Assembly (NCBI GenBank): GCA_910585575.1
Contig: CAJUFS010000018.1
Coordinates: 1-45,992 of the forward strand
Source: an uncultured Adlercreutzia sp.
Lineage (GTDB): Bacteria > Actinomycetota > Coriobacteriia > Coriobacteriales > Eggerthellaceae
Direction: 5' to 3'
DNA length: 45,992 nucleotides
In this document: positions 17,501 through 42,936 of the stretch, in pieces
Layout of the letters: each line of letters opens with the position of its first letter
How positions within the stretch are numbered: position 1 is the first letter of the stretch
Position numbers and translations under genes: made by a program
Notes under the pieces: model-generated
Seen by the model: the letters and a program-made list of their open reading frames with translations, nothing else
Told to the model about the DNA's origin: nothing
Databases searched by the model: none

Positions 17501-20500
17501 GCGCTCGTCATCGGGCTTGTAGATGTCGCGGTCGTTGGGGTCGGGCACATAGGTGGGCAGGCCCTTGAACACGTACTGGCCGGCCTTGTTGGTCACCTGG
17601 GTGCGCTCGGGCTGGTTGGGCACCAGCTCCCAGCCACCCTTGCCCTCCCCCTTCGAGTCGGGGTTCCACCAGTACTGCTCCAGGGACACCGTCAGGCCTT
17701 CCACACCGGGCTCCAGCGGATCCTGCACGCCGTCGTAGTTCTGGTCGTGCCACACGTAGTTGCCCAGGTAGCCCTTGGTGCCGTCCACGTAGCCCAGACC
17801 CAGCTTGCGATACACCGCATAGCCCAGAGCCGGGTCGTTCTGCTCGTACACGGCATGGCCTTGCGCATCCAGGGGCACCGCGCCGTCGAAGGGATAGGTC
17901 TCGCCGCGGCCCTTCACCAGGTACAGGTCGTTATCCCACACGCCGTCGGCCCCCGGCTGCTCCAGCGGGTCCTTCGTCTGCAGATAGGGCGTGGGCTTGA
18001 TCAGACGCGCGGTCACCTTGTTCTCGGCCCGCAGGCAGTAGCGATAGCCTGGCTGCAGGCGGAAGGCGAACTCGCCCGAGGCGTCCGTCTCCATGACGGC
18101 GGGGTTGCCCTCGGTGTCGATGACCGGGTCATCGGAGAACGTCTTGGTCTCGGGGTCGTAGCGATGCACGCTCACCACGATGCGGCCCAGGCGCATCTCG
18201 GTATTGCTCGTGGCCGCCACTGCCGGGTTCGACGGATCGGACTGGTGGTCCAGCAAGCCGTCGATGAAATCGGGCTCCAGATCGGTGCCGTCGGCCAGCT
18301 TGTCGTCGCGGAAGGCCACGCCCGTGAACTCCACGGGGCGGGCAATGCCCACGTCGTAGCTGGTGGCCTCGGCGTCGTAGGCGCGGTGGGCGCCGTCGGG
18401 GTTCATAAAGGCGTCCTCATGGGCCTTGAAGTAGGCCTCGTCGTAGGTCTTGTCCACGCCCGTGCCCTTGATGCCCTTCACCTCGATGGCGTTCTGGGTG
18501 ACGGCGTACATGGCCGTCTCGTCCTCGGGAGTGGCGGGGTCATCGGCCACGCGGGTGATCTCCAGCGGGTTGTCGGCCACGCCGTCGCCGTCCTTGTCGG
18601 GCCCGATGGACTTCGTGGTGATGGAGTAGTTTGCATAGGCCCGCGGGAACACGTAGCGCAGCTTGTAGCGGCCGGGCTTCAGGTTCGACAGAATCCAGTA
18701 GCCCTTGTTGTTATAGTAGTCCGACTCGGTGGTGAAGCTCACCGGGCCGCCGGCGTCGGCGTTCACGTAGCCGCCGCCGCTGTTGCGCAGCGGCTCGCCG
18801 GTCTTGGCGTCGCACTGCACCCAGCGATCCTGGCCGGCACCGGCGGCGTCCTTGATCTCACGCACCACCTGGCCGTCGCGGTTGACCGCCAGGCCGTACT
18901 CGTTCAGCAGCTCCACGGTCACGCCGTTCACGCCCGGATCGTCGGGGGTGCCGTCGTAGTCCAAGTCGCGGAACAGGGCCCGCGTCTCGGTCAGGGTGCC
19001 GTCAGCCGCCGTGTAGGCGCCCTTCCAGGCCCCGGTTTCCGCGTCGAAGGTCTTGGCGGTGGACAGCAGGAAGCGACCGTTCGAGGCACGGTGGTAGGTG
19101 GTCTGACGACCCAGGTCGTCCTTCACCACCGGGCCGTCGGTGTCGTTCTGCAGGCCGTCCCAGTTGAAGTCGAACCACACGTAGTCGCCCAGGTATCCGC
19201 GACCCTCGGGGGCGTCGATGAAGGCGCCCGAGGTCTTCAGCTCCAGGGCGCGGGCCGAGGCGTCGTGGGCATCGGTCTTGCCGGCGCCGTTGATGCGCTG
19301 CACGAAGGTGTTCCACTGGGTCACCTGGGCCAGGCGCTTCGACAGGTCGGGGTTGGAGCCCTCGTTCTCGCCGGGCTTGGCGTCCAGGTTCAGATCGAAG
19401 GTGGCGTCGCCCTTGGTGGAGCCCAGGTACTTGGGCAGGTTCAGCGGCGCGTGCATCTGGTAGCTCAGGCGGATGTAGCCCTGGCACGGCAGGAACATCT
19501 CGTCATCATCCACCTGGGTCCAGAAGGCCCGCAGCCCCTTCTGCAACACCTCGGCCTCGTCGGGATGGGCCGCCACGTAGCTCTTCAGCTCGCTTAGGGG
19601 CACGAAGCCGTCCTGGCGCAGCAGGGCCGGGTCGTGGCGACGCTCGTTGATCCACTTCATCTTGGCCGACGAGGTGCCCTGGGCCCACAGATGCGGCAGG
19701 TCGGTCTCGGCCTTGCACACCAGCTTGCCGTCGCGCCACTCGTAGGGGCCGGCCCACACCTGGGCTTCCGCGGCGGTTAGCTCGCGGCCCTTCGGGTACA
19801 GCGGATCGCCGGGATCGAACCGCGTCAGCTTGATGGAGTCGAGATCCTTGATCCAGCCGTTCCACGTGGACTCGCGCTTCTGCGGGGCCGCCTTCGTGCC
19901 GTTGTACACCTTGGTGTCATCGGTATGGGGCAGCACGTTCAGGAACGTGGTGCGCACGTAGTTCTGGGCCACCGACATATTGGCGCCGGGGTTGTCGGCC
20001 TGCAGGAAGTAGGTGTAGTCGCTGCCCTCGGGCACCGCGGCCGGACCGTTGATGTTGCGGGTGTACAAGGTGCTTATCTGCGAGGTGACGAAGTTTGACT
20101 GGTCCTGGGTGATGTTCGACGAGAAGCCCACGGCCGCCAGCTGCAACGCCAGCATCATCTGGTTGGTGTTGCCGTCCAGGTTGGTGTCGCGGGTGTCCAG
20201 CACGAAGCTGGTCTTATCGGCGCCCTGCACCTCGGGAATGTAGGGCTCGTAGTTGCCCTTCTTGTAACCGTAGCCCGTGGTGTTCAAAAGCTCGGTGGGA
20301 ATGGACGAGTTCGCGTCGTCGCGCACGGGCATCATGAACTCGATGACCACGGCCTGACCCATGCGCAGCGCGCCGCGGGTCACCTCGCCCGTCTCGTCGG
20401 GGTGTCCGGTGAAGCGCCAGTCCATGAACTTGCGGTCATAGCCCGTGGCCACGTCGCCCAGCTTGTCCACCACGGTCAGGTTGCCGCCCACCTGGGGCTG

Positions 20501-32500: not shown

Positions 32501-35500
32501 GTAGCGCGACCCGAGGGCTGCATCGGAATAGCCGTTGAAGGTGATGCGCTGGGCCGAGGTGTCAATGTTGGCATTCGCCATGCCCTTCCACCCGCGCAGA
32601 TTCAAGGTCGTCAAATGGTCGATACCCAAAGCAATGAAATCGGTCTCCAGCAACTGTAAGCTGCCGTCGCCCGAAAGCGGGTAAAACGTATGGCCGTCGC
32701 GTAGCGTACGGCCCGGCGCCACGGCGGTGCCATCGTCGTCGGCTACAAAGCCCTCAAGGGCTCCAGCAGCATCAAACACGGGCGAAAGTACGGCCTTAAC
32801 GGCAGTTGGCAGCACCGTCTCGCTCTCGGAAGGGCCACCCAATTGGATAGTGCCCACCTCGTCGAACATGCGGAATAACGTCGAAGATACCGTGGCCTTC
32901 GTAGCGTGAAAACCGGTCCAGGCCTCTTTCGTACCTCCTGTTTCCTGCACAATGGATTCGCGCATGAGGAACAGCGAGACGTCGAAATCCAAGTCCTCGA
33001 TAATGGAGTAGTGCGTGTTGTTGTACAGTTGCGTCCACAAGGTGAAATCACGGTCGTAGGGCACCGCCAAATAGGATTCGGAATAGTCGCAGTTCGTATC
33101 GTTCGTCCATGCCCAATCATTTTCCCGTACGTCGAGGTAGCTACCGTGGGTGCGCACGGCTACATCGGGCCGCGGAACATACAAGTCCGCCGCAGCCGTC
33201 GTGGTACGGCCATCGCTCAGCTGCGTAGCCGTTACTCGTCCTCGCAAGGCGTTCGAGCTGTCGACGCTGTTGTACCAATCAGGTCGACCGACGAACTGCG
33301 CATGGAGGGTGCCGCTCGCATAGGCCGGCGCCATGACGCCGTAGTCGACCACCACTGTTTTCAGATAGCGGTCCTTAAACGGAGCAAAGGCTCCCTGATC
33401 CAACGCAAAGGTGTACCCCTTGGTGTAGTCAGAGGGATCGTTCTGATAGGCCGCCAAATCGGCCAGGGACAGCTCAATATCGGGCGTGTTCCCTACGATG
33501 CCCGTCACATTTGAAGCGAAGTAGAACTTTATCTTGGCAAGCGAGGAGCCTAGGCTGCCGTCGTCTTTGCGAATCGCGCCCAAATTGAACAGCCCTGCGT
33601 CCATGGCCAGCGTGCGCGCCTTGAATCCGCGCACGAACACCGCGCTCGTGTCGGATCGATTAATAACGCTTTCGAGATCGAACACCACGCGGTTCGCATT
33701 GGCGCGCGCCTGGGTGCCGTTGGCCACCGTGAACTTATAGCCTGAGCCCTCGGTCAGCACCGCCACGGGCACCGAAGAGCCCTCGGCATACCCCGACGGA
33801 TGCTGGCTCGTGGCAGGACGGAAGGCAGCGGCCGAGGTGCCAAAGCTGAAAGGCTCGATCCAGAAGTTCGCATCCACTTTCTGAGCAAAGGCATCGCCGT
33901 ACGTCCCAGTACGCGGATAGAAGTGCGCCGTGCTCACGGTGTAACCGCGTGTCGTGCTACCGCCGGCGGAGGGCAAACTGATAGTACCCGAGTGATCACC
34001 CAAGGTTTCTACTTTGCCATATACCCGCACATTAAAGGCATTGGCTCCTGTAGCCTGCTCCCCCAGCTCGCCAAAGGAAATGCGGATATTCTTAACAGCC
34101 GTCATATCTGCCAGGTTTTCAAGGGGGAGCTTCAACGTGCCAGACGCGTCGATGAAAGCAGCCAGATCGTCCATGGAGTAGCTCTTCGCGGGCGTCGGGT
34201 CGTTCTGCCAGTTGGACAGACCGCCGGTAATGGACTGTCCCAAATCAAACAAGTCAATGGCGCTCACAATGCTCGTACCGCACACCCATTCCCCCGCGGC
34301 GGTCTTCTTGAAGCCGCCGATCTCCAGCAGCGTCGGCACAAAGCCTTTCAACGAAGGGGAACCCGCGACGGACGGAACCTGCGCCAGCTCGTTCATCGAC
34401 AGCGTCAAATCCACATCCTTGGCCGAGGATTCCGTGGCGTTGGTCATGGTGTAGCCCATCCACGCCCGTTCGCGCTTGCTGTCCTCGCCCCAGCGATAAG
34501 GGCCGCACTCAGCCTGCTGCACGCCGTCCAAGCTCCACCCCGAGCTAGTGGTCAGCTTCGGATCGATGGTGGTGATGCGCAAGGTGGCCGCATGAGAGTT
34601 GGTCACGTTAGCCAACGGGTTTTCGTAGTTGGTGCGGAAAGTGCCCGTCACCTTGATGTCCTGCACCTTGGTGGGCGTGCCGTGGATGGCCACGTAGCCG
34701 CTCGCCGGATGCGTGGCCGACACAGGAACATTGCGCTGATAGAAGTCGAAGTCGATCTCGATATGTTGGAAGTACTCGTCGTCCCACACATCAGGCGTCA
34801 GTACCACTGCCCCATCCACGGCGGCCGCGTAAGTGCCGCCCGAAGGTGCGGGGTCGCCCGCCTTCACCTTGTAGGTTGCCAGCTCGGCCGCCGTCAGCGT
34901 CTTCACCACCTGGGTGCCGTCAAGGGCGCGAGAGTATAGCCGTACCGAGGCAATGCGCGAGCGTGCAAGGAAATCGCGAGACAACACGATCTCCGTAGTG
35001 TCAAAGCCACGATAGCCATCGCCCCATTTCTCGTAGGGTAGGTCGGAAGAGGTGAAGCGTCCAGGCACCACAGCTGAGGCATTCAAGCTGCCAAACTCAA
35101 ACCAGAAGCCCGACCGATTGGCGTTCAGCGGCGCGGTCTGCACTTGCGTCATTGAGTACTTCAAACCCAGCGGCGAGTTGTCGAAAGCGTACGTGTCAAG
35201 CTCCAACTGAGGCTTCGCCACGTGCAGGTTGGCATTGCTGGTATCGTTCATATCCAGGCCGCCACCGTAGAGCGACTCGAATTTCGCCGTCGTTCCGATG
35301 ACCTCGTTGTCATTGTCGTTCACGCGCGTGGGCGTGCCATGGTAGGCCATGTAGGGCGACGTGCCCAGGTTAGTGCCGCTCACGCCTTCGGTGAAGGAGT
35401 TGAAGTACACCTCGGCATGGGAGAAATGCTCAGTCCACGCCGAGCGAGGAATGATAATCGCGCCCGCTTGAGAGGCGTGGTATTTCTGGCCGTCCGGCGT

Positions 35501-38500
35501 CGAGCCGTCGGCAGCCACAAGGTACTTCGCCTTCAGATCGGCGATGCTGATGGTCTGAGAGGAACGGCTACCATCCTCGCTCAACGAATGGAGCACCATA
35601 TGGGTGATGGTGGCATACTGCAGAAACGCTTTGTTCAGAATGACGTACTCGGTCTCGAACCCATGGAGCTTTCCATCGTAGGACCACCGCACAAATGGCA
35701 GCGCTGTGGTGGAGAGGCGTCCGGGCATAATCTTCGAGCCATTGCCCGTTCCAATATAGAACACGTAGCCCGAGCGGCTATCATCCAAAGCCACGGTCTG
35801 CCGATCGCGCGAGTTACCGCTTACGTACACATCTTGATCGCGCCGCGCCGCGCTCAAATCGCCCGGGGCGTTCTTCTCAAAGCCATAGGCGTACACATAA
35901 GGCTGAGGACGCGCTACGGCAAGAGTGCCCGCACTCGTATTGGTCACATCCGCGCGCCCGAGCACGCTATCGTAGGTAGACTGCAACGTGCCCTGCACCG
36001 TTTGCTTATCGGGCTTGGTAGGGGTGCCGTACAGCGCCACATGGGGTCCCGGATTGGAGAAACGCGTCCCTGGGTCGAAATACACTTCCGAAGCGAACCA
36101 GTCGAAATACACTTCGATGTGCGAGAAATAACGATTCTCCCAGGCACTTGCCGGAATAATGATACTGCCCGTAGGAGGCACGCCCTTGCCGCCCGAAGGC
36201 GTATCGTAGGGATACGACTCGTACAGGTCGCGATAAGCGCCATCAACAGGATAGATGCGATTGGCTGCATCACTCGCACTGACGAGATACTTCTCTTTTA
36301 GCTCGTTGATGGAAAGGGTTTGCACTCGCTCGACATACGAGCCCTCATCGTCGGGCTCCAGCGAGTGAATGACCACTTTCGTAATGCCGGCGCTTGAAAG
36401 GAGCGCGCCACCCAAAGCTACCTCGCTCGTCTCAAAGCCGTGGAAGCCGTCCTTGTCGAAGTCGTGCACCACCGGCGTGGTGGAGAACTTGCCCGGTGTA
36501 ATGCGCGAAAGCGACCGATTCTCGAGATAGTACACATAGCCACTGCGCAGAGAGCCAAGAGCGGCCTCTTGAGTGCCCGTGCGAGACATGCGCACCTTAG
36601 ACCGACCCTGCATCTCTAAGCCGAAGGCGTTGATCCGTGGTGCCGGGGCCACCCCTACCAGCGTTACCTGCTCGCTGCTCTTCTGATCGAGCTTCGGGTC
36701 GTTGTAGTTGGTTCCGAAGGTGCCCTTCAACGGGTAACGGCCAACCGCCGTCACCGTGCCCACGAGCGAGATATAGGCATTCGCGCCACGCGAACCGGCC
36801 ACATTGGAGGCAAACACGTCCGTCTCCATGGCAACCGCTTGCAAATAGCCGTTGCCCCACACAGAAGAGGGCACCACCACGGAGCCCACCAGGTGCGTTC
36901 CGTACTTAGCGGCTTCCGCGCTGCCAGTTGCCACAATATAGGGCTGCAGCTCTTCCTCAGTCAGCTTAATGGTTGAGGCCACCCCTTCGGAATCAACCAC
37001 ATCAAGCTGCAAGAACTGAAAGCCGCTGATTTTTTCGAGGGCCATACGGCTGATAACCACGTGATCGGTCACAAATCCTGAGAAGGTTCCGTCGCTGCGT
37101 AACGCGTAGGGCAGCTTCGTGGTCTCGAAGCGTACCGGCTCCATGCGAGCGTCGCCCGGATTAACGAGATGGAACACATAGCCTGAGCGCTTTTCGTCGA
37201 GGCGGGCTTCCAAATCGCGATTCGAAGCCCCAGACACCGGATCACTCCAACGGCTGCCATCGGAAGCGCCGTTGGGCGTCCGACCACTGGCGTTATCGAA
37301 GGCGTAGGCCCAGCATTGGGGATTGGAAGGATCCACCTTCAGCTGCGCCGTGCTCTGGGTCTTCTGATTCTCATAGTCCTCATACTTTGTCTCGAAGGTG
37401 CCGGTCAGCGGGTAAGTGCCCAAGGTGGTAGGCTCGCCGTGAATGGCGACGAACGCCCCCTTTCCCGGCGTGGACGAATCTACCAGACCGTTGAACGAGT
37501 CGAACTGCACCGACACGTTCTTCAGGTGCACCCACCACTTTCCGTCGCCCTTCCACACGCTGGAGGGGATGACCGCCGAGCCCACCAAGGCGGTGCCATA
37601 GGCGGCAGCTTCCGCGCTGCCCGCCTTCACCACGTAGGCCTGCAGCTGCTGGCGCGTAAGCGTCAGCGGATCGCGGCCGTCTTTGTCGGTGCCGTGGTCG
37701 AAAGTAAGTGTCACCGAGGTGATGTCAGCGTTGTCGAGGAAGCCCTTGGAGATGATGACGCGCGACGGATCGAAGCCCAGATGGTTGCTGTGATACCACT
37801 CGTTTTCGTAATAGTGGCCGTTGATCCACTCACCCTTCCAGGTGCCGAGATTAGAACCGGGGCGATTCGGCACCCAAGTCGTACCCACCCAACGGCAGTC
37901 GCACGCCGTGTAGGACAGGTTCGAGGTGCTGAACGAGCCCGGCTCGGCCTTCGAGCGGCTGGGGTTCGACAGCTGGAAGATGAAGCCCGAGCGCTCCTCG
38001 CCCCAGGGGGCGTTCTGGGTGCCGCCCACGGCACCCCAGCGCATGCCCTGGGTGGGCGACACGTCGTAGGCGCGCGCCTGCACCGTGGGCTGCACGGGAC
38101 CGATAGCCAGAAGATGCGCCTGAGCCGTCTTCGTGTTCAGGCTGGCCGCCGTATAGCAGTTGCCCTGGTCGCCCACGGGCACCACCCATTGGGCGCGGCC
38201 GTAGTTCACCGTGGCTTTGTTGGTGTAGCGCCCCTCCGAGCCGTCGCTGGCGGGATGGCGCATAATGCCGCGCACGGTAATATCCACGGGAATGGTCGCC
38301 CCCACGGCGAACTCCTTCGCCATCAGGAAGCGCACGTTCCCCGTAAACTTCAGCGGGTTGGGCGTGGACAGCAGCGAGCTGCGCACCTTCGCCGCAATGC
38401 CCTGGGCCTCCAGCATCTGGGCGATGTTCGGCTGGCCCGCCTGGGTGCCCAGCGTCCATACCTCGTAGGTAACGCCGCCCTCGGTCTCCTCGCCCTTGTA

Positions 38501-41500
38501 CGTGGGAGCCACGGGGGTATCCACCCACGAGCCGGCGCCCGGGTCCGAGCCCACCTCGAACTGCACCACGCCCGCCTCGGCGCAGAACCACTGGGCAAAG
38601 CGCTCCTCCTTGGTCAGGCTGGCCGCCGTCACGGTTTTCGCATCGTAGAGCTGCGTGTTCAGCGCGTCTTTGCGCACGCGGAAGTCTAGCCCGGTCAGCT
38701 CGTAGTTCTTGGGCAAATCGTCGTTGACGATGGGACCCCAGGCGGTGTTCACGTCGGGCCCGGCAATCTTCACGTTGCCCGAGGCCTTCATGCCGTAGAT
38801 GCGGTACTTCGACTCGTAGCCGATGCGGTCAGAGCCCTGACCGCCATCGCCCTGCCATGCCTGTCGATCGTAGTCCCAGGCGGTCTTGTGCACCTCGAAG
38901 CCGTTCTTCGGCTCGATGAACGAGGCCGAGGCGCTCCCCTGCTTCGACCAGGTGTAGCCCTTGTCGCCCTTACCACCGAACACCACGGTAGAGGTGGTGT
39001 CGAAAGCCACCGTGGAGTAGATCTTGTTACCCGAGGGGTTCGTGTAGTAGCTGATGTTGGTGGTGTAGGGCACGGCCACCAGCAGCGTCAACTTGTCCCG
39101 CGCGCCTTCCACCGGGCTTTGCGGCGGATAGATGGGCTTGTCCACGCGGAAGGTCACCATGCCGTCGATGCCCAGGTTCTGGTAGGGCAACGGCGTCAGG
39201 CCGAAGTCGTCGATGTTCGAGAACTTCACGTGGTCCAGCTGATTCCACACGTCGTCGCGATCGGTCATGTCGTAGATGAGCACACCGCCCTCATCGGGCT
39301 TTCCGATGAAGCTGCCGTTTTTCATAATGTCGTTGGTGAGCTGGGGAATCTTGTTCCCGTTCTCATCCCACACCATGAGGTCGGCGCGGCGCACACCGCC
39401 CGAGGGGCTGCTCTCGTGGGACACGCGCACCGCATAGCGCATAAGGTCGATAACGGTATCCTCCTCGGTGGAGGTGTTCGTGGTTTCCACGCGATACACG
39501 GTGTAGTTGTATTTGTCCCATAAAATGGGCTCCCACAGTTTCTGAACCTTCGTCTCCCACTGCAGGTTTGTCTTGATGAACGTAATGCTGCGCAGCTGGC
39601 TGTCGCCCGTGTTCATCTCACCCGGCTCAATTTGGAAGGGCACCTCGGGCACGTGGGTCACGCCGTCGTCGGGGTCGGTGTAACACTCCACGCGGCCGCC
39701 CATGCGCACCACGGCGCTAGTGTTCTCGGGCACCTTCCCCAAGAAGGCCACGTGGAACACAGGGCGCTGGAAGCTGGAATCGAGCTCAAACGTGCCGTCG
39801 GAGCCGGTATACACCAGCGTGATCGTACCCGACAGGCCGTCCTTGTAGTATTCCTTGTACACATCCAGGCTGATGGGCGTGCCGTCCAGCAGCACGCTGA
39901 AGTCCATGAACAGCGAGGAGTCGGGGATGATGGCCAGGCGCATGGGCTCCGTTTCCGGATTGGCGTTGGGATAGCGCTTGATGCCGTCCTGATACTCCTT
40001 ATAAGTACGGGCCTCGATGATGGCGCCCTCATCGGTTTTGTACAGGTAGGGCGACACCAGGGTCAGCTGGGTGGGATGGTCCTTGTCGCCCAGCCAGCCG
40101 CCCTCGGGCAAATCAAGAAAGCCCAGTTCTGCTACGAAACCCGCGTCGGCGGTGCCCGTATCTTTAATCAGGTAGATGTTCTCGGCGTCGGGGAGGGCCT
40201 CCATGCTGCCTAAGGGTGCCGGATAGGGATTGAACACGTCCTTCAGGTTCAGCTCGCCCGCCGCGCGCACGGCAAACGGCGCTCCCAGCACATAGGCAGT
40301 GGGGTGAAGCGCCTGCTGCGTCACAACGTCGATAGGGTCTTCCTCGGGCACGCCGAACACCGTGGGCGCGTCGCTGAGGAGTGGAGCGTCGGTCTCCAAA
40401 GATGGCCGCGGCACACCTTCCCCTTCAGGCGAACCCGCCCCTTCAGTCGACTCCGAGCCGTTCGCGGCATCACCGCTTCCGACCCCCTCGCTCTCTCCAG
40501 CTGCACCCCCCGTTGGGGACGAGGGCTTCTGCCCTTCAGCGCCAGAGGCCGCGTTGCCGCCGGCATTGCTTGAGCCGGCGGCGGCGATCTCCGCGCGGGC
40601 GTCAACGGTAAAGGTGTAGGAGCAATCGCGCAGCTCGGAAAGCACCACGGTTCGCTGGCCTGCGCCCACGCTCATATGGAGCGAGAACGTCCCCTTAAGG
40701 GGCTCATAGGGCAGCAGCACGTTACGATGGGAAGACAGCAACTCGGACTGATAGGTCGCCTCGTCCTGGGCCGACCATGCCGGCGTCAGCGCCTGCTCGC
40801 GCACGGGAGCGGCAAAGAAAAGCACCCGTTCTTGACCAGGATCAACCGAACCCTCATCCCCCTCGAGCGCCACCGAGAGCACACCGTCTTTGCTGACAGT
40901 ATAGGGCAGAGGCGCCAGCCCCAGCGCCCTCAGGCTGGCGGCATCGGCGGGATCAAGCGTTGCGCGCTGCTCGTCCGTCAAGGCGGAGACATCGAGCACG
41001 ATCACGCCGCCCTCTCCCGGCTTACCTATGTAGCGCACCTGGTCGGAGCCTTGATCGTCGTCAGCGAGCACCGCCAAGGAGTACCGCAGGTCCTCTTTGG
41101 CCACGCCTCCGCGGCCCTGCTCGTCAGCGGGCCACTGGGCCGTCACGGCTATGCCCGAAGCCGCCGGGCTCTCGCCTGCCACGGCAAAAGTCACCAACGA
41201 GGTCGCCCAGCCAAGGCCCGCGCCGTTACGACGCGTCATAAGCGGAGCGGCAGCGCCCTTAATCGCAAGCGTGCTGCCAGAGAGCGCTTGCCTGGCCGCT
41301 TTCACCTGAATGTCAGAGCCGCTGCACAACGTGACACTGCCCGCCGCCGCCCGCTTGGCCAGCCCCCGCGTCACCGCGCCGGCGGCATCGGACATCGAGC
41401 GCACCTCGTAGCCCCACACAACGTCGACTTGAGCGCCCTCGGGAACCGATCCTTTGAGTCCAAGCTCGAAGGCGGGAAGCTCTGTCTCGGCGGTCACCGG

Positions 41501-42628
41501 ATTCTCGGCGCGCAGCACCAAGCGCCCCGACACACCTTCTTGCAATTCGGCTTCCGTAATGCGGCGATATCCCTCGCCGTGGACCTGCCACAGCGTCCAG
41601 CCCTTAGGAAGTGCCTGGCCGTAGAGGACAGCTCGAGCGGCAGAACGGGGCGTGTCGCCCTGAGCGCGCTGAGCGGCCGCGTCCTGTACCGCAGCCAATG
41701 TCGCCGTGGCATCATCGGCAGCCTTTTGGGCTTCGGTAGCCAAGGCCAGACGCAAGCGCCACTCTTCCTCCGAGAGCGTCGTCGCCATGGTTCCGTCATC
41801 TTTTTCATACAGATAGGGCACATCGAGCGTGAAGACAAACGGATCCGCGTCGTTCATGCCGCCCAAGGCGCCGCCCTGCAACAGCACAGCGCGATTTCCC
41901 AGGCCAAAGCGAACAGACAAACGCTGGTCATCGGTTAGGTAGCCCGAGGAAACCAAGGGAGCGCCCCATGCAGCCAACTCGGGGCGCAGAGCGGAGGACA
42001 CCAGCTGGGACATTTCAGCGGTCGCACCATCAAGCGTCGTCTGGGGAAGCACCTGCGCTACATCGGTAAGCTGCGCAGGCATAAGATTGCGAAGAGCTTC
42101 CTGATCAAGCGGCTGCTGCTGAATCGCAGCAAGAGATTCGCGTTCCGAAGCCGCTGTCTTGTCGGCGGATCCGTCAGCCTTGGCGCCGGAATCAGGGGCC
42201 GAAGGGGCTTCCTCATCGGCAGCCTTCGGCGTTGCCTCGGCGCTCTGGTCGCTGTCATTGTCTGAAGATGCGTCGGAAGAAGCAGGAGCGTCCGACGCGC
42301 CAGGCGCCGTTGCCGCCTCCTCACTCGAGGCTGAAGAGCCTTCGGAAGGCGGGGCCGATTCTTCTTCCTGCTCTTCCGCGGAAGAAGCGGGCTCCTCGAC
42401 GGGAGCGGGGTCGGCGGCGGCTTCCTCGGCCAGCACGCTTACGGCCGATGCGTCGAAGAGCGTCACCGCTAACAGAAACGAAAGAACCGTGGAGAGCGCA
42501 CGCACCCACGGTTTGGTGCGAAAGGATGGCGGAACCTCTTCCCGGCTGGAAGACCCCTCCTTTCGCGGCTCAACGGCATTACTTAGCTGTGAGCCCCCCC
42601 CCCCGCAACGTTTCGGGGTTCGTGGCAT
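11579..42628 (-). CDS. Giant LAQTG-anchored surface protein, 10,349 residues, with SdrD_B-like domains
   Basis: This is a secreted, wall-anchored protein of about 1.1 MDa (taking 110 Da per residue), probably an adhesin or biofilm scaffold. In order: a signal peptide (residues 37-67); an acidic Ser/Ala/Glu-rich stretch (68-165); two related N-terminal modules (about 230-1230) split by a Gly/Ser linker; about seven degenerate repeats (about 1520-3160); a long central part with DUF11-like segments (for example GDYVEYELYV, GDTLWYAATLRNN); eight SdrD_B-like domains from about 7810; a Pro/Thr/Glu-rich stretch; and LAQTG at 10313-10317 with a membrane helix and RRRRKRDEE. The frame is uninterrupted for 31 kb. 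ATG 42628 has no good ribosome site and directly follows an in-frame TGA; better starts at 42719 and 42668 are out of frame across an 11-G run, so expression may be phase-variable. Ligand is unknown. No sortase gene is in the window. Confidence 0.93.
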   Translation of the reverse strand: MPRTPKRCGGGGSQLSNAVEPRKEGSSSREEVPPSFRTKPWVRALSTVLSFLLAVTLFDASAVSVLAEEAAADPAPVEEPASSAEEQEEESAPPSEGSSASSEEAATAPGASDAPASSDASSDNDSDQSAEATPKAADEEAPSAPDSGAKADGSADKTAASERESLAAIQQQPLDQEALRNLMPAQLTDVAQVLPQTTLDGATAEMSQLVSSALRPELAAWGAPLVSSGYLTDDQRLSVRFGLGNRAVLLQGGALGGMNDADPFVFTLDVPYLYEKDDGTMATTLSEEEWRLRLALATEAQKAADDATATLAAVQDAAAQRAQGDTPRSAARAVLYGQALPKGWTLWQVHGEGYRRITEAELQEGVSGRLVLRAENPVTAETELPAFELGLKGSVPEGAQVDVVWGYEVRSMSDAAGAVTRGLAKRAAAGSVTLCSGSDIQVKAARQALSGSTLAIKGAAAPLMTRRNGAGLGWATSLVTFAVAGESPAASGIAVTAQWPADEQGRGGVAKEDLRYSLAVLADDDQGSDQVRYIGKPGEGGVIVLDVSALTDEQRATLDPADAASLRALGLAPLPYTVSKDGVLSVALEGDEGSVDPGQERVLFFAAPVREQALTPAWSAQDEATYQSELLSSHRNVLLPYEPLKGTFSLHMSVGAGQRTVVLSELRDCSYTFTVDARAEIAAAGSSNAGGNAASGAEGQKPSSPTGGAAGESEGVGSGDAANGSESTEGAGSPEGEGVPRPSLETDAPLLSDAPTVFGVPEEDPIDVVTQQALHPTAYVLGAPFAVRAAGELNLKDVFNPYPAPLGSMEALPDAENIYLIKDTGTADAGFVAELGFLDLPEGGWLGDKDHPTQLTLVSPYLYKTDEGAIIEARTYKEYQDGIKRYPNANPETEPMRLAIIPDSSLFMDFSVLLDGTPISLDVYKEYYKDGLSGTITLVYTGSDGTFELDSSFQRPVFHVAFLGKVPENTSAVVRMGGRVECYTDPDDGVTHVPEVPFQIEPGEMNTGDSQLRSITFIKTNLQWETKVQKLWEPILWDKYNYTVYRVETTNTSTEEDTVIDLMRYAVRVSHESSPSGGVRRADLMVWDENGNKIPQLTNDIMKNGSFIGKPDEGGVLIYDMTDRDDVWNQLDHVKFSNIDDFGLTPLPYQNLGIDGMVTFRVDKPIYPPQSPVEGARDKLTLLVAVPYTTNISYYTNPSGNKIYSTVAFDTTSTVVFGGKGDKGYTWSKQGSASASFIEPKNGFEVHKTAWDYDRQAWQGDGGQGSDRIGYESKYRIYGMKASGNVKIAGPDVNTAWGPIVNDDLPKNYELTGLDFRVRKDALNTQLYDAKTVTAASLTKEERFAQWFCAEAGVVQFEVGSDPGAGSWVDTPVAPTYKGEETEGGVTYEVWTLGTQAGQPNIAQMLEAQGIAAKVRSSLLSTPNPLKFTGNVRFLMAKEFAVGATIPVDITVRGIMRHPASDGSEGRYTNKATVNYGRAQWVVPVGDQGNCYTAASLNTKTAQAHLLAIGPVQPTVQARAYDVSPTQGMRWGAVGGTQNAPWGEERSGFIFQLSNPSRSKAEPGSFSTSNLSYTACDCRWVGTTWVPNRPGSNLGTWKGEWINGHYYENEWYHSNHLGFDPSRVIISKGFLDNADITSVTLTFDHGTDKDGRDPLTLTRQQLQAYVVKAGSAEAAAYGTALVGSAVIPSSVWKGDGKWWVHLKNVSVQFDSFNGLVDSSTPGKGAFVAIHGEPTTLGTYPLTGTFETKYEDYENQKTQSTAQLKVDPSNPQCWAYAFDNASGRTPNGASDGSRWSDPVSGASNRDLEARLDEKRSGYVFHLVNPGDARMEPVRFETTKLPYALRSDGTFSGFVTDHVVISRMALEKISGFQFLQLDVVDSEGVASTIKLTEEELQPYIVATGSAEAAKYGTHLVGSVVVPSSVWGNGYLQAVAMETDVFASNVAGSRGANAYISLVGTVTAVGRYPLKGTFGTNYNDPKLDQKSSEQVTLVGVAPAPRINAFGLEMQGRSKVRMSRTGTQEAALGSLRSGYVYYLENRSLSRITPGKFSTTPVVHDFDKDGFHGFETSEVALGGALLSSAGITKVVIHSLEPDDEGSYVERVQTLSINELKEKYLVSASDAANRIYPVDGAYRDLYESYPYDTPSGGKGVPPTGSIIIPASAWENRYFSHIEVYFDWFASEVYFDPGTRFSNPGPHVALYGTPTKPDKQTVQGTLQSTYDSVLGRADVTNTSAGTLAVARPQPYVYAYGFEKNAPGDLSAARRDQDVYVSGNSRDRQTVALDDSRSGYVFYIGTGNGSKIMPGRLSTTALPFVRWSYDGKLHGFETEYVILNKAFLQYATITHMVLHSLSEDGSRSSQTISIADLKAKYLVAADGSTPDGQKYHASQAGAIIIPRSAWTEHFSHAEVYFNSFTEGVSGTNLGTSPYMAYHGTPTRVNDNDNEVIGTTAKFESLYGGGLDMNDTSNANLHVAKPQLELDTYAFDNSPLGLKYSMTQVQTAPLNANRSGFWFEFGSLNASAVVPGRFTSSDLPYEKWGDGYRGFDTTEIVLSRDFLARSRIASVRLYSRALDGTQVVKTLTAAELATYKVKAGDPAPSGGTYAAAVDGAVVLTPDVWDDEYFQHIEIDFDFYQRNVPVSATHPASGYVAIHGTPTKVQDIKVTGTFRTNYENPLANVTNSHAATLRITTIDPKLTTSSGWSLDGVQQAECGPYRWGEDSKRERAWMGYTMTNATESSAKDVDLTLSMNELAQVPSVAGSPSLKGFVPTLLEIGGFKKTAAGEWVCGTSIVSAIDLFDLGQSITGGLSNWQNDPTPAKSYSMDDLAAFIDASGTLKLPLENLADMTAVKNIRISFGELGEQATGANAFNVRVYGKVETLGDHSGTISLPSAGGSTTRGYTVSTAHFYPRTGTYGDAFAQKVDANFWIEPFSFGTSAAAFRPATSQHPSGYAEGSSVPVAVLTEGSGYKFTVANGTQARANANRVVFDLESVINRSDTSAVFVRGFKARTLAMDAGLFNLGAIRKDDGSLGSSLAKIKFYFASNVTGIVGNTPDIELSLADLAAYQNDPSDYTKGYTFALDQGAFAPFKDRYLKTVVVDYGVMAPAYASGTLHAQFVGRPDWYNSVDSSNALRGRVTATQLSDGRTTTAAADLYVPRPDVAVRTHGSYLDVRENDWAWTNDTNCDYSESYLAVPYDRDFTLWTQLYNNTHYSIIEDLDFDVSLFLMRESIVQETGGTKEAWTGFHATKATVSSTLFRMFDEVGTIQLGGPSESETVLPTAVKAVLSPVFDAAGALEGFVADDDGTAVAPGRTLRDGHTFYPLSGDGSLQLLETDFIALGIDHLTTLNLRGWKGMANANIDTSAQRITFNGYSDAALGSRYTFIEAHANAYMGAIRQAMALRHFKDSSMVYTSKMFFDLVSRSAFTDDRTTANGLASGAKRRFDRWAMADDGGHRLKPFGSYFSSMTERDFALEIGYKAQGSFLAGFRQSDLVRIDQARENWEGEWKNTYKFSDQTKAFNEWYPLSFKSLNTGVTMDIQQNLPSDTFDAYYLKIHPSAVDYVQSINITYRDGSTLRVSHDEIQAHKANAVQVSSTGQKFFRLNLLATDANGTHVADFSQNKAVAFRDAFDDYNYGDPPDALRVRTITYTLRINQSPYAPGTTTVAGTPDFGLDYNPKDPTTDAFEVTGRFFKVNETGVYCTTNSALRIGGDYSGSVRSGHKAAVRYDAGHLNGGTGGKSSWSFTDYIRDQNKDVSALGKDALSPYKMQHLISRAEVQVYETNNFVRKAYDVVKDGSFDGNDHDDVDGTGDVAFASDQRFAVSFARWQLPGGGERSNYENKDAEEGTYRIDTDGGGGTRGIGHQFDFYERTWGLTSHADEVVLRETLPVCRPDITAKYYGVLPTGIEIPLATSRTDVKDVRHYVDKIIFHTNQYSAATITGASITGHRDIVVTRAQLQGDAAVATGGSVCVRFKNPDNDDAPQLAGAPYCFNLQLNLNEFVSSFDIVMKEIEGSADYTTETGRGNAGAFHSMEFTSVWNRNMADLYVYGRPYAFADKKDPEEPQVRRDTTNSAETLTRRAYTGATEYQDTTLDRGDANGTQDNFYFRDKAYMYSYRIPFKYRFSIVSGSYSVTDYQDDNLTPNKERYRVFFSNAEDGMTSGKLDPKKRVSHISSAEIPVAIASDFRMQRLYVPREFVPKDALWSENWFQVQNIRFWIPLADGTEKVLSLSWSDAEKLGIVEEPGTHGGYEGCYAIDIEKYLREHRDELKLPTYTATQRTNTIDGYKGDPAVDLTYVSPYVRHIALIIASPNARQDRPERMLDSGQSLAGASNSFTFAYDGVYADRTPEDFYGASETTTDPEKGCWNETSTPSFGKQGGAFSTVTSTHYMNVWSVETKDPNHQDPEVASSSSSDSTRLRHLMATMQAEVVRGRKVVMNGVESRIFGYDKAAIDSSSPETFAPDGTGAVGWGVPDGGLYVGDYVEYELYVGADAASSLPLEGVDALFRVPAGQRIVGWEVAKEQVNGVWRERNSTGLPITAKIGSSISTGEPTRIAPAQTDLSLVDGQEAFAENRDIEFKAGASKWDASGTMTDESERIMAPGAGVWVRVITQLTNEVSDEDYAATENTPHNGTADCPAWRGRGLEAFFYTVSAPKHGYTQYRLKDSADKADGTVRYTTDSGWKDPAVSGNIRHEHGKYTVGGHTTYGGVARSTCYLYNHLADRSLAGTPNHGTEPTIGVAFTKANVHSAGYTANVDGNPAQITVGNLRNTTYHAGNMTVSVKLYDRNGRRSFELTEAPHIAASTTAVLQEEGAVVDLRYPKDLPPSVNLESGPSVDTAVDFLDPSTPEGAARDNRRPSIKVEYFDPLANEGSGAWLDEATVRATYAQNVAYDDTHLVNVNPFRTITEVRWTYYDLPAGGLYNGAVSAYRLEDVALVGVGRYQDVRGLLAANVEQDESWTDAGVILDVGYTHYHQERTTLDFFDATTYAVDEAGNSVTDGAGQPVVEQAGGLKRTDPIARDWGRIKQDSGKTAEPFTVARRNPVVRFQNQVFGSETAAAASFSSNAAQKTGYIPGERLWYKDTLVNVKKGSGNQGRTDVEGELYNPVFYERIPLDYLKDDQGQDVTVAYLAERLAGRIRWTNAAGQDVLAERTAGMTLKVTRVAEEDAPELAPDYGGAMAYANSPKGYANNNWGKPFADLNPQAAGVSGETRFGLFRIEWVPVQEAAANETRPVPAERDPWAPVDKPAANSTCVEVGDTLELWFDVCAAVDGLPQVYTNLNSSGIGAQTGTTGAEPAYFPRLGEYWSSWSNAGCNPLAGSSFGNTGLGVGVTFVDTSNVLMDMDSLLHDAAFTADRPRHCDLWEMFDGSYAAIPGTATNRKYEDGRWWYDTWISYGYVETNRNGEDGTGGVYLDEDVKTSKNLQLARYTPRSPLGTLAQVQGQLPSDTWLITPNDEPLNFKQENTYIRDYWSFVTSARTKGGTDASKRWGSTTPLIWSETRVHLQKAWLATASQMIPDATGLSHSGTAEYESQRKYRTWDPHERWFVYDPSGAKQLYDWRGFLWNQYDAALQYNQGYTARLQALNYGDRTLDGVEFTYVMPRGTEPVLDAEGNPQVSASVLQSVNGWDGQTTSANLKETYRPIDASRVTVEVVQSPWSAYAGYDAPSDSQNPADYRNGRALKSGSQPDVSAATGATSYESLAAPDAGSAQASIKTEDYCQSSQPWVLKITVTQPLGKWFGRNIDGAVDESGQPVGSIDNAADPDIYKGNAGYKINVDVDAHVFGNNANGAWYDRVLVRPFDTREVTGPDTVQGQVASKSSAYFQVYDLDHYEGRVTEADGDKYSDGDRNHTQQLGMDYRWVGRRDGDDYKLDPVWDQSYGSPNMPSVNGRTVQNNTVRTTDDNPGGAKVLNTTTEVAWSKAYKDGSDSLEYAANLYAQTGTNAVQRKPFVRVWNTVGDDGVGDDIDQYYLKGEGDVRQLNIHVENRYWWNDLAQDANYQGQEIYTSYTTDDDGNQIRTAYENRGRWERRSHTYAVDGGQMGSLALPVVTTVLPENIVPIHKSTGIPYPRLIGYTQKFENGDWSVNYANKADATTAGRAKLANALDAPDPWNDFDATITYERVADENTGTEQYRFVVRFTAKGDGPNGDPDREQAIDAYDMDTFKFNVMTIGENTQAAREKGKYDEVLRSSENIRTYVTSAVDNYQFLSDGDISGNPYLVGGAAQLRRRGGEGDDMRLDARQTRVATSVVRWNQDKLWNFQTGQYTWIDTRPVTTLSSEEGKDYALLDSATAETWSKVGKVEVEYSSWRYVWRYTFSEIGCLPFDALDDGTSLRDPSSVSQINLEKKKTNKLPGFTRRYTETENGLGMVTGATHAGLNVEDYGFRAPLALSEATTKGLNGNDDVRTTEAFVRKATGKADATVDGGLMTGLKLRSWASPNLSVDYEIMADRATAVGQGAAQRHGVLDKDGAFTGADEQSWEYGDTLWYAATLRNNPGTVDYDESPVNHAKLVYALHLPDALSFYKSAALSTANYADYEGDDYQFFVEWTHTPRGAAAPVTETLTPKQMVEAGWTINITHQPNYGANNFSDSTYAKPDKDDPSDVIPAGDPVKERARANEVVVFELAPPDDATDEEFAAYPSLLEAFWSGAHADGYFGVGDVLTLKVRTRMDNLPEDESVLEDMQAAYAQQIQQIRTWDGGESTVYATVHDTTMDWLDPTKGGVGWTHGSQPAKPTVQEAKLPEGVPANVAMVPYGFAAQDLARFRFVNKQEDHEQYTDTATGQVVEAVDYDRDSQFTDVYTAATSGYFKIRKPSASVRADTFDLRRLMTDPDFALSLADDAHGGGSNQFYVTQAVNTGGAVNSFMVDWQVPYWATLDSISYDAPLFDAANPTVRTRPQVKTVNTGVWEVPGAEYETITETVTGEDGEPVEVERRGAPLNDAARTESQLRVFVLARTVNCATGSLKSVYYEQNGAERNDRENYALPGTDADRDYWYGEDDVADFNTADEAQGSWQIIGDPAGYAVSDKQNVAIDTTHLTGSANQDIRQIRWIVKAVEPGKTGREALLDSAATYATPVPHGFRLDVDAAPDDYSSETYAEATAGKQEADEVDPERLNTGWEWQKDENGGYMISATGKRILRPQSQMPLTLTNNAAGVLCETYVLDEVDDGAGGDSEVASTSAVHLNHYASAVLRYDDTKFCEPERARAGFYRDEEYPTLKIDLEQAYFNGNAGDAFRWAPGTPSLDLNVSKMMRFRLTLTNLSKEQMDTLGIYGRNPDSCSNPDLSILLPFIEGFGAAGTMTPSDFAYVPYGDTLSSSHPLNENYTSTAVVEKVETTLPTGQVITQNKVVEYAQNLDDTKPMWTYHVENRDPFFKTEEVVDVPEITLIQPQVGGNLTVVDKLGDVATGYDRKFMDWRFTGHPDETGEVTRGALRMGQAVVIEFMMPVRDDANSSIPTELLNTTGYGYKKGNYEPYIPEVQGADKTSFVLDTRDTNLDGNTNQMMLALQLAAVGFSSNITQDQSNFVTSQISTLYTRNINGPAAVPEGSDYTYFLQADNPGANMSVAQNYVRTTFLNVLPHTDDTKVYNGTKAAPQKRESTWNGWIKDLDSIKLTRFDPGDPLYPKGRELTAAEAQVWAGPYEWRDGKLVCKAETDLPHLWAQGTSSAKMKWINERRHDPALLRQDGFVPLSELKSYVAAHPDEAEVLQKGLRAFWTQVDDDEMFLPCQGYIRLSYQMHAPLNLPKYLGSTKGDATFDLNLDAKPGENEGSNPDLSKRLAQVTQWNTFVQRINGAGKTDAHDASARALELKTSGAFIDAPEGRGYLGDYVWFDFNWDGLQNDTDGPVVKDDLGRQTTYHRASNGRFLLSTAKTFDAETGAWKGAYTAADGTLTETRALFRDLDYDGTPDDPGVNGVTVELLNEYGLAVNRDGQVVREIKDAAGAGQDRWVQCDAKTGEPLRNSGGGYVNADAGGPVSFTTESDYYNNKGYWILSNLKPGRYKLRYVFPRAYANYSITTKSIGPDKDGDGVADNPLEITRVADDPATPEDETAMYAVTQNAIEVKGIKGTGVDKTYDEAYFKAHEDAFMNPDGAHRAYDAEATSYDVGIARPVEFTGVAFRDDKLADGTDLEPDFIDGLLDHQSDPSNPAVAATSNTEMRLGRIVVSVHRYDPETKTFSDDPVIDTEGNPAVMETDASGEFAFRLQPGYRYCLRAENKVTARLIKPTPYLQTKDPLEQPGADGVWDNDLYLVKGRGETYPFDGAVPLDAQGHAVYEQNDPALGYAVYRKLGLGYVDGTKGYLGNYVWHDQNYDGVQDPLEPGVEGLTVSLEQYWWNPDSKGEGKGGWELVPNQPERTQVTNKAGQYVFKGLPTYVPDPNDRDIYKPDDEREKFLAGYRLRINQDDLEALGQDFAITKRNSAYDTSGAVDEELDSDVRSIPLDGPNPADQTQTEPVFYLNEPGSETAFDFDTGLSSGAMIVLAGEPSDTTQTNDVRTVKVGRLSVDYDLNNAQRYEMWDAGLVEIPQASVTGRVWNDGDYDGVQSDERTADGALVEPGMAGEPVALTQWYYDPTRTNAADGGSHWFRNEQFGNDKRSSTTVEVDDGTGTGTTVTQTVPLVTGGFLRDEGAWSALAEGEVGVLTDEEGTYTFDHLPAAYSAPDGSHYLAAYRVRLLSTHVDDKGTSETTDDNWWLPTREHAAGGAVGADSDIVDAKTLIVADREMVRGANGAARPALRPHDGQVILAGVALTARPDQDSQVTLPGTDTVSGAPVRYDWLTLRSDCPVDEATGTVLVPGGDAGQLPAPERALVGVVWNDEDNDGMQNKDAAGNPTEEEPGVDGVQVTLERYVSDGADGWIPDTTWAPQEAWDDYFEKDYADLTNPLVMNHSMLTGANVAADGAVRAGVYRFDNLATQRREADGSLTVFAYRTRITDGKYKRRTYLTTRYQRGTDPTEDSDLVYDDAYLMSRERDEYTVLLDQARADSSTTLNDVQAANPYNPNLVLGTGASLRARAWGMDQPLFGILADALPTEPVLTYDAATASDRAFNDAGIRLRQVKTIAGTLFYDSDYDGICDADEQGLAGKRVYLQAWVWDEQAEQWTRYVEDSGPFDDVATTDALGAFAFRNVPICTPVEEDPDGDDADPAKQHLLGYTIAVEGSADAASLSASVAGLPVTRLVDGIDDEASKAHRPGQAVGASALQVPVGYGDDYPLAFSAANRVAARNGSGPSVVDGRIVLASAASDGMAEAYLRDVPVGAAAEASFDISKGFDEIRMNGGFIPVGQTIEGTVWIDDNYNGLRDGSTTAFLRTAAAAAAGAEAEAAPTSVVRDFTEPGLDGQPLYLTQEYFDGTRWVKNPDFGASGGEVVVGNLRATDTTVTVRYVMEGMEYRLIGAGQDDVWYGGDTPWPGARGVFDRTAGYAIQPLTEYTVACRAVGTTGPEDMLKVSTTGTCAVDTPAGLGLKVTSGSVLVSRELPLPEGAAEDAGWEYSADGQTWTADESGGLTVLTGLAPRTTYTVSVRLKGTEDVADTCTVTTLAENLGRSDGYTPVGAAAPQEPSAPAPAGARVTTTDASGTYRFTGLAAYVQQTADGRWVDLAAPGTTGGDDALMMPARYRVSMAEPTGGNPTMFRAEDGAYPDIDSDLDRAADGTLYLRQRVALSAVNGGTVTLDDGYALLSTVADPDDGHQYEATLTAAGGTLTAASSAGAAVALDVPHGVSVHGGDGGVAIPHAASIAGRVWDDEDRNGLYNQKAGEAGIRTDENGQEVPVFEDGVPGVKVTLTRYWYQGETEGSEAVWIYDKGFGTQERLTDEEGRWVFEGLDATGPSPYDSNNTVVYGYRAHVADIPDGWGVTELNATEPADEELGRAARNNPVIDSDLDEETTRLVPDAGLDGLMVLARPLTSGESADVAIAGPWYQGAGEALNNRWSTAGTRDSLYNDAGLVEYLRVEISGKVFIDDDKDGVQRGDERPWTSSTVYLERQAVSAQEAYDAGVGSRQGDGMAGSHLDREGEPIIAASREYPTLADLGETEEPTEPSEPVDPEGPEEPTEPEEPTDPTDPEEPPTPVGPDEPEEPTDPAEPAEPSTPEAPTESEGEGGEAEGGMAAQALSEPLDAADAADDLTTPETGDSATPNVPTEDDAAESEGETAPVRGEDDGILSEGEWEVVASQLPNEDGTYAFTDLPLVDGYGKAYRYRVRMDIDGEGEFVPFNPEGVADDVDNDLGHLNLMGQTAPELTGVTEALEVVRVRDILDAYGRGYDLLDPDHWAIGTSKRVDLGFYKEFPEEPGDEGDPQNPENPNPENPDPEDPWSTNLIESGWKTLVKWLTPLAQTGDKLLVGLLMLVAAAAAALAALALRRRRKRDEE
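11582..11692 (-). other. C-terminal cell-wall sorting signal (LAQTG)
   Basis: Residues 10313-10317 read LAQTG, followed by DKLL, a hydrophobic helix of about 20 residues rich in Leu/Ala/Val, and the terminal RRRRKRDEE. This is the tripartite sorting signal of sortase substrates. Ala replaces the usual Pro at position 2; class E sortases of high-GC Gram-positive bacteria are known to prefer LAxTG. Sortase class here is inferred from the motif only. Confidence 0.85.
12395..12594 (-). repeat. Degenerate Pro/Thr/Glu repeat encoding a linker in the giant protein
   Basis: About 66 codons encode tandem variants of EPTEP, EEPTDP and EPSEP. Such stretches usually span the peptidoglycan next to the sorting signal. 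Here the stretch lies about 230 residues earlier and appears to interrupt the last SdrD_B-like domain. Its repeated GC-rich DNA is a likely site of length variation between strains. Confidence 0.8.
12700..19200 (-). repeat. Array of eight SdrD_B-like domains in the giant protein
   Basis: Each domain opens with a strand motif close to GxVWxDxDxDGxQ followed by an EPGVxGVxVxL-type strand. Openings lie near 19198, 17772, 17088, 16250, 15505, 14826, 13487 and 12830 (about residues 7811, 8286, 8514, 8793, 9042, 9268, 9714 and 9934). The Asp-rich DxDxDG loops are typical calcium sites of the SdrD_B/Cna_B-like family. Spacing varies from about 230 to 475 residues because some domains carry insertions. 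The array should form an extended stalk near the wall. Confidence 0.85.
14060..14580 (-). other. Fibronectin-III-like pair inserted in the sixth SdrD_B-like domain
   Basis: About 170 residues here do not fit the SdrD_B pattern. They contain two segments with features of Fn3-like folds: LTEYTVACRAVG, and later GWEYSADGQTWTADESGG with LAPRTTYTVSVRLKG and DTCTVTT. They sit between the LTQEY strand of the sixth domain and its closing VTTTDASGTYRFTGL strand. The fold call is by pattern and is moderate. Confidence 0.55.
33150..38080 (-). repeat. About seven degenerate tandem repeats of 215-270 residues in the giant protein
   Basis: Each unit has an RSGYVF-like strand, a PGxFSTTxLPY-like segment, GFETxxVxLxxxFL, an (I)IPxSAWxxxYFSHIEVYFD-like segment and a GTPTK...VxGTFxTxY end. 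RSG-type openings are at 37993, 37189, 36547, 35776 and 35116 (residues 1546, 1814, 2028, 2285 and 2505). More diverged copies lie near 34470 and 33690. I do not recognise a named family. The repeats are protein-level; the DNA has diverged well beyond exact repetition. Confidence 0.75.
38930..41940 (-). repeat. Two related N-terminal modules (ancient duplication) in the giant protein
   Basis: Both modules contain PYLYxxDxG, then SGxxxL with an Fxxxx(L/F)xGxVPE strand, then IGKPxEGGV and, after 40 residues, LGLxPLPY or FGLTPLPY followed by DGxxxxxV. Copy one is about 40600-41940 and copy two about 38930-40130. A Gly/Ser/Ala-rich linker at about 40377-40590 separates them. Function is unknown; position near the N-terminus suggests a ligand-facing part. 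Confidence 0.65.
42428..42520 (-). other. Signal peptide of the giant protein
   Basis: Residues 37-67 have a basic n-region (FRTKPWVR), a hydrophobic core of about 20 residues (ALSTVLSFLLAVTLFDASAV) and a VLA-EEA cleavage site near residue 67. The preceding polar stretch is unusually long, and would be about 30 residues longer still from the start at 42719, as in the extended signal peptides of many large Gram-positive surface proteins. Confidence 0.8.
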
Positions 42629-42719
42629 TCACGCCGCCCGCCGTGTTGGTCAACGGCGCGGTCGCCATTTTGCCAAGCTCCTCGCTTGGCGAGATACCGT
42701 AGTCTCGATTCTGTTTCAT
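42579..42719 (-). CDS. 46-codon open frame that would be the real start of the giant gene (out of frame in this sequence)
   Basis: ATG 42719 begins MKQNRDYGISPSEELGKMAT and follows a moderate ribosome site (GGGG six bases upstream). A second in-frame ATG at 42668 has GAGGAG about nine bases upstream. The frame crosses the 11-G run and stops at TAA 42579-42581. With one G fewer it reads on as LRGGGSQLSNAVE into the giant protein, which would then have 10,379 residues (10,362 from the second ATG). I regard it as the N-terminal coding segment of the giant gene in its OFF configuration rather than as an independent peptide. Confidence 0.65.
   Translation of the reverse strand: MKQNRDYGISPSEELGKMATAPLTNTAGGVNATNPETLRGGGLTAK
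42594..42604 (-). repeat. Homopolymer of 11 G (coding strand) at the giant gene start
   Basis: The plus strand shows exactly 11 consecutive C, read as G on the coding strand, 25 to 35 bases after the opening ATG of the giant frame and between the alternative starts and the signal peptide. Runs of this length change length by slipped-strand mispairing during replication. It is the only such long homopolymer I noticed in the window. Confidence 0.9.
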
Positions 42720-42758
42720 GTGTATCCCCAGACTTCTAGAGTCCAACGTACTGCGTCT

Positions 42759-42907: not shown

Positions 42908-42936
42908 ATTGTAAGACTCCCGTTATCAAACTTCAA
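42908..42936 (-). promoter_or_regulatory. Predicted sigma-70-type promoter of the giant gene
   Basis: On the minus strand TTGAAG (42936-42931) and TACAAT (42913-42908) are separated by 17 bases, close to the consensus in both boxes and spacing. The expected start is near 42900, which gives a leader of about 180 bases before ATG 42719. Confidence 0.65.

Follow-up and report, generated by a model that had tools for sequence, protein, structure and literature searches.

Structure of the run locus

A stretch of 45,992 nucleotides (nt; 63% GC) was analysed, here termed the window. It is contig C18 (CAJUFS010000018.1) of a 2.76-Mb, 136-contig metagenome-assembled genome of the Adlercreutzia group (Eggerthellaceae). 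Its minus strand carries a giant open frame of 10,349 amino acids (aa), a putative surface-protein gene. An 11-G run (42594-42604) separates this frame from two upstream ATG codons (42719 and 42668). The run is the sole homopolymer of at least 8 bases in the whole window, and the giant frame holds no other G run longer than 6. The two ATGs share a leader frame that crosses the run and, at 11 G, terminates at TAA 42581-42579; at 7, 10 or 13 G they would join the giant frame. The giant frame itself opens at ATG 42628, immediately behind an in-frame TGA and 24 nt ahead of the run. A preliminary description of this DNA had claimed the run, the TGA, the common frame of the two upstream ATGs with their ribosome sites, a promoter ahead of them, and the joining of frames at 10 or 13 G. 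All of these were recovered on the sequence, the promoter by consensus match, and 7 G was added to the joining lengths. The features, all on the minus strand, are as follows (duplex scores in kcal mol-1).

42908-42936, sigma-70-like promoter TTGAAG-17-TACAAT, predicted by consensus match
42726-42729, GGGG, candidate ribosome site of ATG 42719 (6-nt gap), from the sequence, duplex score -5.5
42678-42683, GAGGAG, candidate ribosome site of ATG 42668 (9-nt gap), from the sequence, duplex score -8.1
42579-42719, leader frame (46 aa and a stop) opening at ATG 42719, with ATG 42668 as a further start, from the sequence and codon score
42594-42604, 11-G run, proposed slippage switch, from the sequence
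11579-42628, giant surface-protein frame of 10,349 aa, open reading frame
42455-42499, signal-peptide hydrophobic core just past the run in the giant frame, from translation and hydropathy, by eye
40769-41989, N-terminal domain common to paralogues and homologues, from sequence comparison
34487-38128, divergent internal repeats of ~250 residues (protein ~1501-2714), from self-BLAST
17558-17767, SdrD_B-like domain PF17210, Pfam E=1.7e-21
11582-11692, LAQTG-type sorting-signal-like C-terminus with motif, hydrophobic stretch and RRRRKR tail, from translation

We propose that the G run is a slipped-strand contingency switch that would turn translation of the giant gene on and off, and we give this reading a probability of about three in four. 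Slipped-strand contingency loci carry a homopolymer of about 8 bases or more in or beside the 5′ end of a gene, as the 11-G run does, and a change in its length alters the reading frame, as the arrangement of frames predicts here. An excess of runs alone was rejected as evidence, because base composition can yield such runs; a hand estimate for independent bases at 63% GC gives ~0.2 runs of at least 11 per 46 kb.

Ribosome sites and coding signature of the leader

Ribosome-site strength was estimated by a simple anti-Shine-Dalgarno duplex score, which was -8.1 kcal mol-1 for ATG 42668, -5.8 for ATG 42628 and -5.5 for ATG 42719. The earlier statement that ATG 42628 is without a ribosome site was thus not upheld. 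The leader frame had a codon score of 4.7, and the two remaining sense frames scored -46.4 and -24.3. With the codon table of the giant gene, none of 5000 shuffles reached the leader score; with a table from five other genes of the window, 1 of 5000 was as high, and two antisense frames outscored the leader frame. On this signature the leader frame looks coding. Only 95 of the 959 glycine codons in the giant gene are GGG, which makes an ordinary glycine linker unlikely.

G runs in paralogues and across the family

The window protein is one of five giants in the same genome, the others lying on contigs C7, C2 and C1 (near 18 kb and near 113 kb). The C7, C2 and 18-kb C1 proteins comprise 11.3, 12.8 and 23.4 kilo-residues, respectively, and the 113-kb C1 gene is interrupted by an assembly gap. 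Three of the five giants, the window included, have a run of 10-12 G that separates the signal peptide from a plausible start, compared with 0.02 expected. The C7 (G10) and 113-kb C1 (G12) runs each follow a start that has a ribosome site and precede the signal peptide, and in both the start with the best ribosome site is out of frame at the assembled length. Their N-terminal domains are 40% (C7) and 39% (C1) identical to that of the window protein.

A profile built from three paralogues was searched in 138 Eggerthellaceae genomes and found relatives in 19. Every profile match spanning the N-terminal columns was taken as a gene start (43 in total); one partial match (G058 C237), with no run of at least 8 in its first 2.5 kb, was left out. 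Two starts (G077 C19 and G133 C1) were incomplete in the locus first retrieved, and the DNA further upstream had no run of at least 8. Sense-strand G runs of at least 9 were present at 13 of the 43 gene starts, compared with 0.36 expected from each genome's own run density (rounded genome sizes), and antisense runs at none. The Poisson P was ~2e-16, or 3e-13 when three orthologues were counted as one event. Run placement in the family is non-random and above background, and this location is the strongest argument from sequence that placement exceeds chance.

The runs lie in the 5′ untranslated region (UTR), before the signal peptide or after it; they fall within a coding leader in eight of the 13 genes and upstream of the frame opening in five. 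For the eight, a preferred start was chosen by ribosome-site score, ATG and leader frame. Three of these starts were in frame (A. mucosicola G9, G133 G9 and G079 G10, the last with a weak ribosome site); the other five, those of the window, C7, C1, G135 C39 G13 and G108 G10, were out of frame. The downstream frames of the eight are open for 11327 (C7), 10349 (window), 1226 (C1, then assembly gap), 11666, 2486, 11693, 34927 and 3000 codons. In G135 C39 (34.9 kilo-residues) and G108 C214 the signal peptide comes before the run and is read in the other frame. G135:C39 (L064) and other family members have frames that stay open for 20,000 to 34,927 residues, to our knowledge among the longest in bacteria.

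Three of the upstream runs are in 5′ UTRs downstream of a conserved promoter-like site, and there the reading frame is not the issue; run length at one such site differs between species, with 12 in A. caecimuris, 9 in A. muris and 11 in a metagenome-assembled genome. The leaders of the giants aligned well in two places only: around the promoter-like site, for part of the C2-type group, and from close to the signal peptide onward. Several giants share a TATGCCC element in the 5′ UTR, past the promoter-like site. Contig scans for further relatives gave none at first and 18 loci with a second, broader alignment; scans of IMG/VR gave no match with the flanks of the window run and one locus with the protein.

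A twenty-gene set with a shared leader

A separate set of 20 genes (L175-L194) was defined by one exact pattern in two related genomes, G135 and G136; G136 holds at least one variant member (L149) that the pattern misses. The genes share a layout of ribosome site, ATG with an MSK...KTY leader, (C)Gn and a signal peptide (KVLSLILAG...). A AGAAAGGT-type ribosome site is visible in 19 of them, and the twentieth is too near a contig start. The G run begins 33, 34 or 36 bases from the ATG, with an extra C preceding the Gs in the 34-base cases. The C and G together total 9 (5 genes), 10 (10 genes), 11 (4 genes) or 13 (1 gene). At the assembled lengths four genes are in frame and 16 out of frame, and none of the 20 downstream frames closes within the stretch examined, which covers at least 505 codons. 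Both members of the closest cross-genome pair by identity (72%) are in frame.

The ectodomains are divergent within the set. BLAST (E 0.01) matched them neither to the window giant nor to any of 12 N-terminal domains (A2), and the one ectodomain scanned had no Pfam match. The set looks like a surface repertoire under run-length control, and it offers a natural experiment with 20 copies of one switch.

Length difference between overlapping contigs

Two contig ends of the window's own assembly, C71 (L025) and C43 (L022), overlap by ~79 bases and differ solely in a run of G10 versus G9. This run is just ahead of a gene for a GHKL-domain histidine kinase; the preceding gene is sensor-like by eye, with no Pfam match, and at G10 its frame continues into the kinase frame. 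The length ambiguity probably broke the assembly at this point. The difference may be population variation or a read error.

Proposed switch and alternatives

In the proposed switch, slipped-strand mispairing at replication would add Gs to the run or remove them. At a permissive length, ribosomes would translate the leader from ATG 42719 and/or ATG 42668, then the glycine stretch, the signal peptide and the wall-anchored body of 10 kilo-residues. At other lengths translation would end at TAA 42579, and the giant would be absent or weakly made from ATG 42628. The population would thus be a mixture of cells with and without the giant protein. The idea of a phase switch, put forward in the preliminary description, gained good support from the comparison: runs in 3 of 5 paralogues and 13 of 43 family starts, preferred starts both in frame (three) and out of frame (five), and a separate 20-gene set. 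That the copy had been captured in the OFF state is likely; the codon signature favours the upstream frame, while on the other side stand the single assembled length and the score of ATG 42628, which is like that of ATG 42719. For the leader starts, the assembled 11-G copy would be OFF.

Several observations weigh against the switch. The ribosome-binding score of ATG 42628 resembles that of ATG 42719. The coding signature was weaker in the paralogous leaders: for C7, 736 of 5000 shuffles were as high and another frame scored slightly better, and for C1 the result was modest (151 of 5000). C7 also has an in-frame ATG near its run, with a weak ribosome site. Runs are absent from two of the five giants of the same genome (C2 and the 18-kb C1), and 30 of the 43 homologous starts have none of at least 9. 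G runs of at least 9 occur in 127 of the 138 family genomes, often outside surface genes. The sole close pair at one site, the 5′ UTR run of A. muris and of the metagenomic contig L195 (98.75% identical), has G9 in both. For the start region, whose comparison in relatives the preliminary description had suggested, a DNA search found no orthologue of the window leader in eight genus mates, and the leader aligned poorly with that of A. mucosicola. In the 20-gene set, 4 of the 16 copies counted as out of frame have an alternative upstream start (ATG or GTG) that is in frame. The C71/C43 difference could come from a read error.

The giant protein could instead be constitutive, with ATG 42628 as the true start and the run as a glycine stretch, made at any length that keeps the frame. 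ATG 42628 is in frame at 11 G, with a duplex score (-5.8) no worse than that of ATG 42719. Set against this are the position of that ATG, with an in-frame TGA right before it and the run only 24 nt further on, the coding signature in the upstream frame, the minor status of GGG among glycine codons and the recurrence of the run in paralogues at different lengths; moreover, slippage would shift the frame even from ATG 42628. We consider constitutive expression unlikely.

Recoding is unlikely to the same degree. Polymerases and ribosomes can slip on long G runs, and transcriptional slippage or ribosomal frameshifting would give a steady minority of in-frame product with no switching of the DNA, which would account for the giant frame staying open. 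Some copies already have their start in frame, however, and run length differs between copies and between overlapping contigs, a variation needless for fixed recoding. Recoding could also operate alongside slippage of the DNA.

It is more doubtful still that the run is fixed at 10 G and that the eleventh is a sequencing or assembly error with no switch behind it. Homopolymer counts in assemblies are unreliable, which speaks for such an error; it would leave unexplained why runs of 9-13 in sense orientation cluster at the 5′ ends of 13 of 43 family genes, and the four different totals at one site in the 20-gene set. Gene decay, with the run as a frameshift lesion, is the least probable explanation: five of the eight coding-leader giants have their preferred start out of frame, as decay would have it, but the window frame is open over 10,349 codons, and 4 of the 7 other coding-leader homologues are open for more than 11,000 (the rest 1226, at an assembly gap, 2486 and 3000).

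If the slippage switch is real, the change of one base would control a protein of more than 10,000 residues, an economical device for bet-hedging. Isolates of the same species may then differ in surface proteins through one run length, and giant genes or 'pseudogenes' annotated in Eggerthellaceae may have been given a wrong start or a wrong call. Run-length counts in existing reads would give a direct test of surface heterogeneity in Adlercreutzia and related gut bacteria. A wider proposal, to which we give even odds, is a genome-wide slippage programme in the Eggerthellaceae over giant (10-35 kilo-residue) and smaller surface proteins. Runs would have been gained repeatedly at different places of one giant family (in the 5′ UTR, ahead of the signal peptide or immediately behind it). 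A second set, ~10 copies per genome with one switchable leader and most copies out of frame, would expose a small, changing surface subset on each cell.

The giant protein and its neighbours

The giant protein has a hydrophobic signal shortly past the run, and at its C-terminus LAQTG is followed by hydrophobic and then basic residues (from the translation, by eye); we take the LAQTG tail to be a sorting-signal motif. The last 549 aa had no Pfam match, and the C-terminus of the C7 paralogue is LPQTG. The protein is probably secreted and wall-anchored, and we infer that it may serve in adhesion. The SdrD_B-like domain is in the last third of the protein, and the first 4,900 residues had no Pfam match. 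The N-terminal domain was predicted with a mean predicted local distance difference test score (pLDDT) of 75.3. Its Foldseek matches included integrins and the adhesins SdrD, SdrG and antigen I/II, with TM-scores of at most 0.27 among the 50 matches listed, and so no fold was assigned.

A Pfam scan of seven neighbouring genes of the window gave matches for six (CoA-transferase, radical SAM, LuxR-type, molybdopterin enzyme, DmsC and 4Fe-4S) and none for the seventh; no sortase was among them, in the absence of a search aimed at sortases. An antisense open frame of 2,572 aa (11879-19597, plus strand) inside the giant gene is probably a by-product of that gene's codon bias.

Relation to known systems

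In homopolymer contingency genes of the Neisseria and Campylobacter type, run length sets the frame or the promoter activity of surface genes. These systems differ from the window in that they are Gram-negative and their proteins are unrelated.

The closest precedent is Bifidobacterium breve UCC2003. There, replication slippage in a G tract inside the gene turns two sortase-dependent pilus genes (bbr_0113 and bbr_1889) on and off, as demonstrated by maximum depth sequencing (PMC9187656). Both organisms are gut actinomycetes, and in both a G run lies between an upstream frame with a promoter and ribosome site (the promoter of the window being predicted) and a long surface-protein frame. In B. 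breve the downstream 'start' has no canonical ribosome site, and the reference sequence holds the two frames out of register (PMC9187656). The window differs in its class (Coriobacteriia) and in the length of its protein, which is about four times greater (10,349 aa versus 2,674 aa for bbr_1889b). Its signal peptide lies past the run, whereas that of B. breve is in the upstream frame. Slippage was measured in B. breve and is proposed for the window, for which no pilus cluster is claimed.

Gardnerella, also an actinomycete, has numerous G/C and A/T tracts that often lie close to genes with cell-surface motifs, and one of them varies between colonies (PMC11287997). Unlike the window run, most of its tracts are upstream of genes; it belongs to another family and habitat, and its proteins are probably not of the giant family. 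Within the Eggerthellaceae, Eggerthella lenta shows reversible surface variation of its capsule by a megabase inversion (PMC13174815, preprint), which differs in mechanism (DNA inversion, not run length) and in target (capsule, not surface protein). Phase variation of an E. lenta prophage has also been described (PMC8778435).

A literature search by titles and the openings of abstracts, subscription journals not being covered, recognised no homopolymer switching in Coriobacteriia. The earlier suggestion that the switch would be new thus holds for the lineage, as far as that search goes, and does not hold for the mechanism, which is published for B. breve (PMC9187656). The switch would bring a known mechanism to a new class and to proteins of unusual size.

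Other G runs

Runs of at least 10 were inspected in context in the window genome (G000, 13 of 13), G001 (14 of 14), G136 (13 of 13) and G003 (16 of 22); those of G004 (8) and G005 (5) were left out. A promoter-spacer class was considered and is not claimed: of 63 distinct runs of at least 9 at the loci scanned, one fits a -35/-10 pair across the run. This one, a G10 run in G000:C5 near 20348 (L013), lies in the spacer of a promoter-like site (TTGACG-17 nt-TAGCAT) upstream of a gene for a secreted protein. In G000:C4 near 17466 (L011), a G13 run is ~190 nt upstream of a UDP-glucose/GDP-mannose dehydrogenase gene.

Runs on G000:C70 (L024, G11) and in G001 near 2660229 (L148, G10) occupy similar upstream positions (TTGC-Gn). 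The secreted-protein genes that they precede have very similar signal sequences, and that of L024 encodes a C69 peptidase. At locus L161 of A. mucosicola (G003:C1, 2400-7200), two near-identical adjacent genes, the first cut by an N gap, carry runs of G11 and G13 directly ahead of the signal peptide.

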